Assembly: GCA_038396605.1 (NCBI GenBank)
Contig: CP121690.1
Coordinates: 2,202,500-2,266,499, forward strand
DNA: 64,000 nucleotides
Origin: Eubacteriales bacterium mix99
GTDB lineage: Bacteria; Bacillota; Clostridia; Caldicoprobacterales; DTU083
Direction of reading: 5' to 3'
The position numbers were made by a program, and so were the translations under genes. Positions 3,104 to 18,805 of the stretch are shown one piece after another. Each line of letters begins with the position of its first letter. Positions within the stretch are counted from its first letter, which is position 1. The notes beneath the pieces were generated by a model. That model was not told the origin of the DNA, ran no database searches, and saw only the letters and a program-made list of their open reading frames with translations.

Positions 3104-4018
3104 TTATTCCAGCAGGCCTTTTTCCTGCAGAAACTGTTTGGCAACTTCCTGTGTGCTTTTTCCTTCCACGTCCACTGCATAGGTCAGGTCGACCATGGTT
3201 TCGTTGCTGAAGATTCCGCCAAGTTTATTCAGGGTTTCCTTCAGATTGGGTGCCTTGTCTTTGTACCGCTCAAACAAATCTTTCCGTACAAGCAGTGCGC
3301 CGTTGTATTCCGGGAAGAAGTTTTTATCATCCTCCAGCACTTTAAGATGGGCCTTTTTGTTCAGACCGTCGGTAGCATATACTTCTGTCACATCGATACT
3401 CCCATTTTCCGCTGCGGAGTATTTCAGCCCGATATCCACCGGCTTGCTTTCCCTGAACTTCAGCCCATAGAATTTAACAAAAGGATTGAATTTCATACTG
3501 CCTTCCTCGCTGAAGAACTCATGTTCTGCCCCAAACACCAGCTTGTCGGCCACCGGGACAAGGTCGCTGATCTTCTCAAGGTCATACTGGTCTGCGATTT
3601 TCTCCGGAACGGCAATGGAATAGGTGTTATCTGTACCAAGCGGATCCAGGAGCATGACGCCCTTTCCCTTTTCTGCGGTCTCATTCACAAAATCATACAG
3701 GGTCTGCCCTTCGGGAATATCCTTTGTATCCATTTTCAGATAGGTGGTAAGCAGCGTCCCATCGTAGCTGTTCATCAGGTCACAGTTGCCCCTGACCAAT
3801 TCATTGAAACCGTTGACAGGAGAGATTTCGTCCTTTATGAGCACCCTGGCATCGGTATCCTGCTCCACCAGCATTTTTACCATTTGATGAATCAATTTCA
3901 TTTCGGAAAATTGACCATCCATAATGATGATTTCCTCCCCGCCTCCCTTTCCCGAGGAGCAGCCTACGACTGAGAGTATCAAAAGTAAACATGTTATGGC
4001 AGCTATCTTTCTTTTCAT
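3104..4018 (-). CDS. opuCC: Osmoprotectant (glycine betaine/choline/carnitine) ABC transporter substrate-binding lipoprotein
   Basis: 304 residues with a lipoprotein signal ending in the lipobox 'LSVVGC' (Cys about 20), then an OpuAC-type binding domain beginning 'EEIIIMDGQFSEMKLIHQMV'. Such domains capture quaternary amines in an aromatic cage outside the membrane. It is the last gene of a four-gene minus-strand operon (ATPase, permease, permease, binding protein) and has its own ribosome binding site (GGAAAGGAG). The length is normal for OpuCC/OsmX proteins. The exact ligand cannot be read from sequence. The symbol follows the Bacillus and Listeria naming by similarity, although the gene order differs from B. 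subtilis opuCABCD. Confidence 0.87.
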   Translation of the reverse strand: MKRKIAAITCLLLILSVVGCSSGKGGGEEIIIMDGQFSEMKLIHQMVKMLVEQDTDARVLIKDEISPVNGFNELVRGNCDLMNSYDGTLLTTYLKMDTKDIPEGQTLYDFVNETAEKGKGVMLLDPLGTDNTYSIAVPEKIADQYDLEKISDLVPVADKLVFGAEHEFFSEEGSMKFNPFVKFYGLKFRESKPVDIGLKYSAAENGSIDVTEVYATDGLNKKAHLKVLEDDKNFFPEYNGALLVRKDLFERYKDKAPNLKETLNKLGGIFSNETMVDLTYAVDVEGKSTQEVAKQFLQEKGLLE

Positions 4019-14991: not shown

Positions 14992-16155
14992 CTATCTTAC
15001 TTCCACGGTGACTTTTTTCAGATTCAGGCCGCTGGTCAGTTCTTCCGCAGTGGCATATCCGTCGGCATCGGCAACATCGATGGTCCGGACAGGTTTCACA
15101 TCGCCGTTCTTCAAGGTTGCAAACACTTTTTCATAGTCTTCCTCTGTAAACTTGTTGAACCGATCAAAAGCATCGGCTTTTTTGTCCCCGATTACCGTCG
15201 TGGGAAGTCCCACTCCGTCATTGGTTGCATCGAAGGTTGTGGTTTTGCCGCCGAAATCATCCCAACTGTCCGTCTTGTAAATGGACTCCAGCACCTGCTT
15301 CACGGAAGAGCCCAGACCTTTCATGGCTGACGTGATGACCATATCGCTGTCATACCTCTGATCCACATCCACACCAATCATTTTTTTATTCGCTTCGGAG
15401 GCAGCCGCAATTACGCTCTTGCCGACGGAACCGCCACAGCCGAAGATGACCTCCGTTCCTTCCTGATACATGGTCTTTGCGGTAGCTTTATTGGTATCGG
15501 TCTCCGCAAAATCGCCGGTATAGTGATAGGTAACGGAAACGGCACCGTCCTTCATTCCCAGATCCTCTGTTGCGGCTTCCGCCCCCTGCAGATATCCGTA
15601 TCCGAAAGCCTGTACAGGCGGCACTGGCATTCCGCCGACGAATCCAAGACTGGTATAACCATCCTGGACGGCAGCGTATCCTACCAGATAACCGGATTGT
15701 TCCTCTGCATACACAACGCTGGCCACATTGGATTTGGTTTCGTAATTCTGGTCCGGATCGTGGGGAGAACCATCCAAAAGGATGAATTTCACTTTGGGGT
15801 ATTTCGTCTGTGCTTCGTAAATCGGCACTTCAAACAGGTAGCCGGGCGTTACGACCACCTTGGCGCCGCCGGTGACTGCCAGGTCGATGGCTGCCAGATA
15901 GCCGGCATCAGATGCTTCCTCGGGTTTGAAATATTTTGCCTTGACATTGTTTTTTTCGGAAAAAGCGGTTACGCCTTCCCAGGAACCCTGATTGAAAGAT
16001 TTGTCGTCAATGTTTCCTTTGTCCGTAATCAGTGCAATTTCATACTTTCCGGATTTTCCGGAACCGCCGGTTTGGCTGGAACAGCCTGTGGAGAGAGTAA
16101 ATACAAGCAGAGACATCAGTACAAGAGCCAGTGTTCTTTTCACAGTTCTTTTCAT
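14992..16155 (-). CDS. nupN: BMP-family nucleoside-binding lipoprotein
   Basis: 387 residues. A lipoprotein signal ends in 'LSTGC' (Cys about 25), followed by a BMP/Med domain: 'EIALITDKGNIDDKSFNQGSW' is the family hallmark and 'IFGCGGSVGKSVIAAA' the hinge region. BmpA/PnrA-type proteins bind purine or pyrimidine nucleosides outside the membrane for an ABC importer. It is the first gene of the operon, with its promoter about 60 bases upstream. The insertion sequence ends just upstream of that promoter and leaves it intact. Confidence 0.92.
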   Translation of the reverse strand: MKRTVKRTLALVLMSLLVFTLSTGCSSQTGGSGKSGKYEIALITDKGNIDDKSFNQGSWEGVTAFSEKNNVKAKYFKPEEASDAGYLAAIDLAVTGGAKVVVTPGYLFEVPIYEAQTKYPKVKFILLDGSPHDPDQNYETKSNVASVVYAEEQSGYLVGYAAVQDGYTSLGFVGGMPVPPVQAFGYGYLQGAEAATEDLGMKDGAVSVTYHYTGDFAETDTNKATAKTMYQEGTEVIFGCGGSVGKSVIAAASEANKKMIGVDVDQRYDSDMVITSAMKGLGSSVKQVLESIYKTDSWDDFGGKTTTFDATNDGVGLPTTVIGDKKADAFDRFNKFTEEDYEKVFATLKNGDVKPVRTIDVADADGYATAEELTSGLNLKKVTVEVR

Positions 16156-16212
16156 TGATATTTCCCCCTAAATGATTTTAAAATTGTGGTAGAGTATCTG
16201 TTGTCAAATGAT

Positions 16213-16241
16213 ATTCTATCATTATCAGACAGTTTTAACAA
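16213..16241 (-). promoter_or_regulatory. Promoter of the nucleoside importer operon
   Basis: On the minus strand TTGTTA (16241-16236), 17-base spacer, TAGAAT (16218-16213). The end of the insertion sequence lies only 34 bases upstream of the -35 box. Confidence 0.7.
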
Positions 16242-16372
16242 TTTCCCTGCGCAGAGTGGATAGCGTCAATTTACTGTAGGGAAAGAAAGAATAGAGACAT
16301 CCTGAAATATTCTTACTAGCAACAGTGGTCTTGATTGATTTCATTAATTTTAACAGCAATCAATCTTGTCAG

Positions 16373-16545
16373 CTGCATTTATTCCACGATCTGCTTGACA
16401 ACGAGCCTCTGCCGGTGTGGCTTACGGCAGATGTCGGCAGCAGCCATCTCTAACAGCGGGATAGGCTTTGGAGCGGTTGCTGCCGTACCTCAATGCTACC
16501 ACACCGACTTCTCGTTATCAAGCAGCTTTCGCGGCATAAACGCTT
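16373..16545 (-). ncRNA. Long nested inverted repeat in the 3' part of the insertion sequence (structured RNA candidate)
   Basis: Four paired blocks are nested around one centre: GCATTTATTCCACGA (16375-16389) with the block ending at 16543, CTGCTTGACAACGAG (16391-16405) with CTCGTTATCAAGCAG (16511-16525), CGGTGTGG (16413-16420) with CCACACCG (16499-16506), and CGGCAGCA (16435-16442) with TGCTGCCG (16478-16485). Three of the four outer mismatches become G·U wobble pairs only when read as minus-strand RNA, the transposase strand. A competing short hairpin CTGCCG/CGGCAG overlaps the inner blocks. No coding frame explains this region. Confidence 0.55.
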
Positions 16546-16597
16546 GATCTATGTCGTCCCGGCTATTAAAAACGCCATAACGAGCTTTATGAAGGGC

Positions 16598-18028
16598 CTA
16601 ATAGCGTATTCCGGCCATACTCCTCATCTCATTAAACAGCCCTGTCTTTTTCCCCATGGTAATTACAGTTGGGCTGCTACTCCATGAACCAGCATATCTG
16701 CTTTCTGATGATTTCCTTACTTCCTTGATTAATTCATCCTGCAATTCATGTTTCCTGTTCTCCTTCTCCTTAAGCTTCTGTGCCATAACCAGGTCATAGA
16801 TCCTGCCGCCATTTTTCTTATATACGATAAGTTTGGACATCCTGGCAACACCTTTTTCAGACCATCCCTTAGGCCTGCTGCTTAGCCTGCTTGAAAACAC
16901 ATGGCTTATATGACCTTCGGCACTGCATCCTATCAGTTCATAGTCCTTATCAGCCTTTATTTCTATTCCATGCCAGTTATTCAATATGTACCGTCTGGCA
17001 TCCTTAACTGCCTTCCTCTTCGTTTTGGAAACCGTTCGTTTGAGGATCTTCTTGAAAACATCCTTGACCATGTCCTTGTCCGGCCAATCCAATGCATCCT
17101 TCAACTCCTGATAGATGTCTCCATCGTTTAAGTGTGCAGTCGCAGTTATCATATATTTCTTAAGATGAAAATTGTCCAGCACAAACTTGCTTTTGGGAAT
17201 CCAGTCAAGCCCGGCCTTAATCCATGATGCCCCATCCCCGGAAAGGTATATGGTTTCAATGAAATCCATGTTGTACTGCTTGTCTATATATTCTATGACC
17301 TCCAGCCACAGATCCTCACTCTCATCATACATGCCGCCAAAATATTTAACGTTTTTAAGCCTGGTCCTTGTTTGGCTGCTTTTTTCGGGATCTACGCCTT
17401 CATGAACATAAACCAGCCTGGGCATAGCTATCTTGCTTTTATCGTCTTCTCCCTGCAGGGAAACATGATCTTCATCTGCTTCAACATACAGTATCCTGAC
17501 ATCCCTCTTCTTGTCCACCTTATGCTCATGTTCGCTGATCTCAAGGTTATGTATTTTATCCATAACAGCCTGCTTGCTTATTTCATCCATATATCCGGCT
17601 CTTTCTCCACCTTTCCTGTAGCTGCTGTCTATGGCCTCTTCCACCACATTGATCACCACATCTGCACTCACTCTGTCATGTGGCTTAAGACCAACAAGCT
17701 CATCAACGAGATATTTCCTTTTGCCACCACTCTTTGGCTTAAAATACGTTCTATTATACTTGATCGTTCCAAAGGTCGTTAAGATCCCTGTCTCATCTTT
17801 CCTGACAATCTCCCAATTGTTTTTCCTGACCCCGGACTTTCGAAGCTGTTCATCCATCCCCTCAAGAGTCTCCACCAGTATATTCCGACCAAGTTCAAAC
17901 AGATCCTCCTGCAGCCCCAGAGTCAGTTCTGCCAGATCCTTACCTTCCCTTAAAAATTCTCTTACCTTATTTTCTGTTTTTCTTGCAAACTCGTTAAAAT
18001 CTTGTATACTGTACATGGAAGGTGACAC
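16598..18028 (-). CDS. ISLre2-family transposase
   Basis: 476 residues, intact, of the UPF0236/ISLre2 type. Recognisable parts are the N-terminal 'REGKDLAELTLGLQEDLFELGRN' segment, the beta-rich 'GTIKYNRTYFKPKSGGKRKYL', the catalytic core with 'DVRILYVEADEDHVSLQ' and 'IYLSGDGASWIKAGLDW', and the basic region around 'LDNFHLKKYM'. Acidic residues of the core are as expected for a DDE-type transposase. Full length and no internal stop suggest recent activity. It is the only gene inside the insertion sequence; about 320 bases of structured non-coding DNA lie between its stop and the left end. Confidence 0.9.
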   Translation of the reverse strand: MSPSMYSIQDFNEFARKTENKVREFLREGKDLAELTLGLQEDLFELGRNILVETLEGMDEQLRKSGVRKNNWEIVRKDETGILTTFGTIKYNRTYFKPKSGGKRKYLVDELVGLKPHDRVSADVVINVVEEAIDSSYRKGGERAGYMDEISKQAVMDKIHNLEISEHEHKVDKKRDVRILYVEADEDHVSLQGEDDKSKIAMPRLVYVHEGVDPEKSSQTRTRLKNVKYFGGMYDESEDLWLEVIEYIDKQYNMDFIETIYLSGDGASWIKAGLDWIPKSKFVLDNFHLKKYMITATAHLNDGDIYQELKDALDWPDKDMVKDVFKKILKRTVSKTKRKAVKDARRYILNNWHGIEIKADKDYELIGCSAEGHISHVFSSRLSSRPKGWSEKGVARMSKLIVYKKNGGRIYDLVMAQKLKEKENRKHELQDELIKEVRKSSESRYAGSWSSSPTVITMGKKTGLFNEMRSMAGIRY

Positions 18029-18115
18029 CCTTTCTTAATATTTTTGTGATGATCAATATTTTAGCAGGATGTCGCCTTCTTTTCAATCCTTATGGTAATT
18101 TATTACTCTTAATCC

Positions 18116-18805
18116 CTACGGTAACTTTACGCTAACCGCAGAGTGTTCTGCGAAATCCCTTGCCTTGATGATTTTAACGATTCGGCTGGTACCCAGCCTG
18201 GAGGCTCCCAGTCTCAAAAAGTCCTCTGCGTCCTTCAGGGAAGAGATGCCTCCGGCTGCCTTGATTTTTACGTGAGGGTTTACATGCCTTGCAAACAGGG
18301 CGACATCTTCCTTTGTCGCTCCGCCGATAGAGAAGCCGGTGGAGGTTTTGATATAATCCGCGCCGGATTTGGATACGATTTCACACATTTTTATTTTTTC
18401 CTGGTCGTCCAGCAGACAGGCTTCGATGATGACTTTGAGGATTTTCCCTTCACAGGCCATTTTCACTGCCTTGATTTCCTTCAGCAGGGAATCGTATTTT
18501 TTGTCTTTCAGGCATCCGACATGAATCACCATGTCAATCTCCTCCGCTCCGTTGTGCACGGCGTCGGAAGCTTCAAAACATTTTACAGCGGTGGTCGCAT
18601 AACCGTTTGGAAATCCGATGACGGTACAGATGGGGATTTTGCCATCCACATATTCAGAAGCGGCCTTTACATAAGCCGGAGGAATACAGACCGAAGCGAC
18701 GCCATATTGCATCCCTTCGTCGCAGAGCATACGGACTTCTTCCCAGGTGGCAGAGACCGAAAGCAAAGTGTGATCCACTGCCGACAGAATTGTTTGTTCG
18801 TTCAT
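18116..18805 (-). CDS. deoC: Deoxyribose-phosphate aldolase
   Basis: About 229 residues. It cleaves 2-deoxy-D-ribose 5-phosphate to glyceraldehyde 3-phosphate and acetaldehyde, a step of deoxynucleoside breakdown. The TIM barrel shows 'DHTLLSVSATWEEV' at the N terminus, 'TVIGFPNGYATTAVKCFEA', the Schiff-base lysine in 'GADYIKTSTGFS' and the phosphate-binding 'IKAAGGISS'. ATG 18805 is preferred (9 bases after GAAGGG) over ATG 18814. The stop codon TAG (18118-18116) is made of the terminal bases of the insertion sequence, so the C terminus (…SVKLP) may be altered. Context with the nucleoside importer fits catabolism of imported deoxynucleosides. Confidence 0.93.
   Translation of the reverse strand: MNEQTILSAVDHTLLSVSATWEEVRMLCDEGMQYGVASVCIPPAYVKAASEYVDGKIPICTVIGFPNGYATTAVKCFEASDAVHNGAEEIDMVIHVGCLKDKKYDSLLKEIKAVKMACEGKILKVIIEACLLDDQEKIKMCEIVSKSGADYIKTSTGFSIGGATKEDVALFARHVNPHVKIKAAGGISSLKDAEDFLRLGASRLGTSRIVKIIKARDFAEHSAVSVKLP

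Follow-up and report, generated by a model that had tools for sequence, protein, structure and literature searches.

What is a nested hairpin of about 170 bases doing in the non-coding tail of an insertion sequence, and why do its imperfect pairs wobble only on the strand that encodes the transposase? The window, that is, the whole 64,000-nucleotide stretch of DNA analysed here, carries such a hairpin in an ISLre2-type element, and the initial annotation read it as a structured RNA transcribed with the transposase gene or, alternatively, as a passenger element. With a probability of about 0.8, we believe the hairpin to be a single-strand origin (sso) of the RSB type, as found in Gram-positive rolling-circle plasmids, which the insertion sequence carries in its non-coding tail as a module of its own. 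The features concerned are as follows.

16259..18136, minus strand: ISLre2-type insertion sequence, 1878 bp, with ends GTTAGCGT...ACGCTATC; the same ends recur in 12 near-full copies across the host genome
16598..18028, minus strand: transposase gene, 476 aa, UPF0236/ISLre2 family (Pfam PF06782, E 3.5e-88)
16250..16258, no strand: 9-bp target-site duplication CGCAGAGTG, tail side, same as 18137-18145
18137..18145, no strand: 9-bp target-site duplication CGCAGAGTG, head side, same as 16250-16258
16373..16546, minus strand: putative RSB-type sso module, imperfect hairpin of about 170 nt (covariance model R1, 189 bits)
16526..16539, minus strand: RSB motif TTATGCCGCGAAAG, part of the left arm; of the first 13 letters, 12 agree with RSB TTATGCCGAGAAAATTT as printed in the available part of PMC4598088
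16516..16521, minus strand: -35 box TTGATA, stem-paired
16493..16501, minus strand: extended -10 box TGG-TAGCAT, spacing 17, its hexamer mostly unpaired in the consensus structure
16375..16391, minus strand: conserved 3' arm GATCGTGGAATAAATGC, partner of the RSB arm

The carrier is an ISLre2 element by its transposase, its duplications and its promoter-directed insertion. In the part of PMC3942029 available, the family is described by a p-MULT 3/UPF0236 transposase, terminal repeats, an 8-9 bp duplication and insertion upstream of sigma-A promoters. Exact 9-bp duplications flank eight of the 14 copies of the element that were checked, and for 10 of the 14 host-genome copies (L001-L014) a -35-like hexamer follows 16-17 nt beyond the tail, the same placing as that source describes; past the tail of the window copy, the flanking promoter reads TTGTTA-17-TAGAAT (window 16200-16258 region). 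The hairpin has 15 sense matches in the host genome, every one of them inside a copy or fragment of this element: the tail is part of the element. No Rep_trans gene was found in the host genome, which speaks against the sso reading. A lipoprotein gene of one kind, presumably BMP/nucleoside-binding, stands directly downstream of the ISLre2 tail both in the window (14992-16155) and, in another genome, at L151 (dn177).

The hairpin first described from the letters of the tail is confirmed, and it belongs to the minus strand. As RNA, 16373-16545 folds on that strand at -91.7 kcal/mol (z -9.96), a stability reached by none of 200 dinucleotide shuffles, whereas the plus-strand fold is weaker (-80.5, z -7.32); with single-stranded DNA parameters the values are -44.7 (z -6.1) for the minus and -38.6 (z -4.9) for the plus strand. 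Among 48 non-redundant hairpins, the sense strand is the better folder in 45 as DNA and in 43 as RNA. The wobble bias is also real and recurs in the homologues, with 188 G.U cells versus 55 A.C cells across 66 aligned sequences and one hairpin pair for which 57 of the 65 distinct rows have G.U. Covariation is strong: in the 65 distinct homologues, in an alignment fitted to the covariance model, standard pairs make up 94.2% of pair cells, a share that falls to 45.4% or less once the partner is shifted by 1-3 columns, and double changes occur at 35 of the 45 pairs (488 double-change cells versus 137 in shuffles). A first, model-free alignment of nine sequences had compensated changes at 11 of 45 pairs. 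Double changes are found within single transposon families too (the six IS256 rows have them at 20 of the 45 pairs), which suggests that the pairing is still maintained after capture.

A selected, strand-specific structure was correctly recognised, and it is the assignment to the transposase transcript that is not supported as proposed. Selection on RNA had been suggested as the source of the wobble bias, yet G.T pairs are equally expected from folded single-stranded DNA, and a strand that folds while single-stranded accounts for the bias no less well than an RNA. Co-transcription of a structured RNA, regulatory or guide-like, with the transposase gene would agree with the bias, with the covariation and with a minus-strand RNA fold at z -10, but the curated covariance models of Rfam gave no match to the hairpin, and such an RNA would leave the conserved promoter boxes and the match to plasmid sso sites unexplained. 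Given that the module accompanies unrelated transposases, that it is convergent to the transposase gene in IS256 and in several IS3 copies, that its left arm contains a sigma-A promoter and that its homologues include plasmid sso sites, we consider an RNA of the transposase transcript very improbable; DNA is favoured over RNA by the promoter boxes, by the homologues on plasmids and by an orientation that is not fixed relative to the transposase. The window copy has the letters for the short competing hairpin in the right arm (CTGCCG...CGGCAG), from which a switch had been proposed, but no such hairpin was seen in the homologues inspected, so a switch is not supported. Nor is this a terminator-only hairpin: AAATGCAGCTGACAAG comes next instead of a U-run, and the structure does not qualify as an intrinsic terminator. 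Two other identities were discarded, namely a 'skipping-rope' motif, for which Rfam held nothing and a literature search gave nothing related, and an attC-like site suggested by GTTAGGC in the arm, for which no RYYYAAC partner was seen.

The left arm is where the sso reading finds its signals. In the plasmid matches the RSB motif of single-strand origins reads TTATGCCG[A/C]GAAA, and the available part of PMC4598088 gives RSB as TTATGCCGAGAAAATTT and CS-6 as TAGCGT. By its motif the window hairpin would belong to the RSB-type group (ssoA, ssoT, ssoU, ssoW), and its form, a large imperfect hairpin on one strand with homology to known sso regions, agrees with that assignment. The CS-6 box TAGCGT is absent from the window copy and from pFL5, and anything similar occurs in just 10 of 98 matches; CS-6-like boxes (TAGCGT/TAGCGA) are carried by six of the seven plasmid copies. 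Lacking CS-6, the window copy would not be an ssoA in the strict sense, and we class the module as a predicted RSB-type sso without CS-6.

Conserved in the same arm is a sigma-A promoter of the extended -10 kind, TTGACA-N17-TGnTAGGCT. In the homologues, TTGACA-like and TGnTANNNT boxes lie 16-18 bases apart, and some hairpins have the -10 variants TATAAT or TAAAAT, neither of which occurs in the nine training sequences of R1. Across the 48 non-redundant hairpins the promoter score is 9.7 on the sense strand versus 7.9 on the palindromic opposite strand (p 2e-6), a control that is not fully independent because the orientation of the hairpins came from the model. A good extended -10 promoter that leaves the tail in the direction of the 14992-16155 gene could also be taken for a strong outward promoter or a transcription boundary of the element, working in ordinary double-stranded DNA, but covariation between the promoter arm and the right arm has no role there, the U-run is missing after the hairpin, and in IS256 the promoter is directed inward. 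We therefore hold this explanation to be very improbable.

Under the sso reading, the minus strand, which encodes the transposase, would fold when single-stranded; the stem would restore the -35 box while the -10 would remain largely open, sigma-A RNA polymerase would begin a short RNA running apexward, and DNA polymerase would extend that RNA into the second strand. That the fold restores promoter boxes which host RNA polymerase can use is a prediction from the base sequence. A precedent exists in pT181, whose RSB is placed in the lagging-strand origin palA (ssoA), where RNA polymerase primes the folded origin, according to the available part of a review (PMC5703833). We infer that RNA polymerase would prime on the window hairpin, that second-strand synthesis would depend on its orientation, and that the hairpin would help the element or its carrier replicon through a single-stranded stage such as conjugation, rolling-circle replication or possibly transposition.

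The homologues of the hairpin connect it to rolling-circle plasmids. A blast search with the tail found matches in nine of 12 other genomes of the family; in seven of these nine it was the hairpin's outer arms that matched, mostly away from related transposases. The covariance model R1 was built from nine element-borne hairpins (four window-type copies and hairpins from three of those genomes) and matched 12 of the order's 30 genomes, at least 54 of 391 of the class, presumably Clostridia, and at least 22 of 398 of the phylum, the last two figures being lower bounds because only 6-7 candidates were scored per genome. On plasmids, R1 has a single strong site in pT181 (3765-3930, 34 bits, E 1e-8, two bases past mobV), in pC194 (2212-2044, 43.7 bits) and in pE194 (635-799, 34.3 bits), and the next best site in any of these three scores 10.9. 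One strong site was likewise present in pACK4 (50.2 bits) and in pFL5 (72.6 bits, the top plasmid score), and two Macrococcus plasmids scored 58.5 and 43.5 bits. There was no R1 match in pUB110, the sso of which we take to be ssoU. By blast, the L086 hairpin matches tiny Macrococcus plasmids, the hairpins of the window, L134, L146 and L165 had no match in the plasmid collection, and those of L134 and L182 had none in a phage search; the blank results for pUB110 and in these blast searches speak against the sso reading. The L086 hairpin has an SSB gene on one side and on the other a gene for a rolling-circle initiator, Rep_trans; blastp homologues of both neighbours occur at L088, and other neighbouring genes include Mob_Pre at L169 and a G2P/REP-type Rep at L197. 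A separate subfamily (L092, L097, L158, L160 and L161) has the same promoter and core with other ends (AAAGTTTTTTAAGT...GGATTCTTGAAAAAGTTTTT in L158) and without the RSB; it is possibly a second class of sso.

How the module came to lie in an ISLre2 tail is best seen from its other hosts. A host-type gene was assigned within 700 bases for 61 of the 98 matches, by blastp to labelled examples and by Pfam, and none for the remaining 37. The 61 comprise IS3 (19), ISLre2 (15), IS256 (8), a DDE family near IS240/IS66 (5), IS21 (4), IS110 (3), SSB (2), large serine recombinases (2), IS1202-like (2) and IS30 (1), the IS110 assignments being uncertain because the genes lie 170-508 bases away. The module is mostly 3' of the transposase gene and usually on its strand; in IS256, and in several copies of IS3 and IS21, the two are convergent. 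Between unrelated transposons, homology starts and stops with the hairpin: L083 (IS256) and L094 (another DDE transposase) are homologous from two bases inside the left end to the exact right end, and L094 and L115 (ISLre2) are 81% identical over 181 bases. In a tree of 53 host-labelled hairpins, the eight labels require 22 changes where the minimum possible is seven; the ISLre2 label alone requires 10, three of them forced by well-supported branches, and the hairpin nearest to that of the window comes from an IS3 element. It seems that unrelated jumping genes have acquired the sso module repeatedly, and the passenger element entertained in the initial annotation was in this respect right.

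The hairpin is, by the same token, not a structure specific to ISLre2. The closest relative, L053, has a transposase 84% identical and the same element ends, but no RSB hairpin was seen in its 369-base tail and R1 had no match in its genome. The tail of L053 (2941-3312) has a different 11-bp stem, GCTGTCAAGCC...GGCTTGACAGC, whose TTGACA was considered as a promoter and rejected for its unconvincing spacing; at L068, only 68 bases separate the stop codon from the element end.

Carriers without a transposase exist as well and have a MITE-like form: L184 and L203 (372 bp, with short terminal repeats), L131, L133 and L145, and L194 and L208. L150 and L151 were also considered as a MITE until their ends, once read, showed an ISLre2 tail. 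The 372-bp carrier, with both copies in one genome, lies about 91 bases upstream of genes that we take to be malic-enzyme-like (L184) and EF-Tu-like (L203), with its promoter aimed at them. The carriers L131, L133 and L145 are about 325 bp long, and their outermost flanks vary from copy to copy yet remain complementary, as if they were inserting into palindromes. Movement across families and MITE-like carriers (L184/L203, L131/L133) are what one would expect of a selfish palindromic repeat that inserts behind transposase genes and does nothing for the element. However, promoter, RSB and pairing have been maintained over deep divergence, no module-only insertion with duplications of its own was seen, and the homologues are plasmid sso sites; this is the most improbable explanation of those we weighed.

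Further observations concern individual hosts. At L201 (1501-1659), the match lies 59 bases behind a gene for an IS200-type Y1 transposase, a family that moves as single-stranded DNA. In several IS3 copies (e.g. L119, 696-1526) the transposase reading frame runs into the RSB arm, which then encodes its C-terminus (SVYAAKAA, for example), and an unrelated ORF at L190 also ends in the RSB arm, with SVYAAKAS; we presume a resemblance to ssrA-like degradation tags.

For the insertion sequence, the benefit of an sso may be second-strand synthesis while it resides on a conjugating or rolling-circle replicon, or it may be a step of its own circle-forming transposition; the presence of the sso may also be simple hitch-hiking. 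IS3 and IS21 are circle-forming families, and the available part of PMC3942029 reports circles for ISLre2 and IS256, so that the identified carriers (ISLre2, IS256, IS3 and IS21) are largely from circle-forming families. Among the 146 DDE_Tnp_1 (IS4/IS5-type) matches of 40 sso-bearing genomes, not one had a found sso within 1 kb, versus six ISLre2 elements outside the window's genome with an sso nearby, a contrast that rests on coordinates judged by eye in genomes picked for having an sso. We tentatively suggest, while thinking it rather unlikely, that the sso is a working part of insertion sequences with circular copy-out, in which the element would pass through a single-stranded circle and RNA polymerase would prime the second strand at the hairpin.

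Single-strand origins have been described for rolling-circle plasmids and some ICEs. For sso modules inside insertion sequences, we found no report in the open-access literature searched; the nearest, PMC12016507, describes in its available part an insertion sequence whose 17-bp repeats give a rolling-circle vector a different host range, and no sso for the insertion sequence. Carried again and again, and exchanged, by ordinary insertion sequences and by MITE-like elements, the sso would deliver a second-strand start to any single-stranded replicon in which its carrier lands, and this could alter plasmid host range and gene capture. Whether such elements themselves pass through a single-stranded stage also becomes a testable question.

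Among known systems, the closest are the ssoA (palA) regions of pT181, pC194 and pE194, which share with the window copy the RSB, an imperfect hairpin of about 165 nt and one strong R1 site each; they have an apical CS-6 where the window copy has none, and the carrier here is an insertion sequence. An unannotated hairpin of Bacillus licheniformis pFL5, a putative sso that we take to be of the ssoT type, has the same C-variant RSB TTTATGCCGCGAAAG and, like the window copy, no CS-6, but its carrier is a mobilizable plasmid and its apical part is unrelated to that of the window. Frpo, the single-stranded DNA promoter of the F plasmid, is similar in that folded single-stranded DNA rebuilds the -35 and -10 for host RNA polymerase, as described in the available part of PMC9849209; it differs in sequence and host, drives leading-region genes and is likened here by description. 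Finally, sso1 of ICEBs1 is likewise an sso on a chromosomal mobile element, according to the available part of PMC4595007, and it too is likened here by description; ICEBs1, unlike the insertion sequence of the window, is an ICE with rolling-circle replication of its own.
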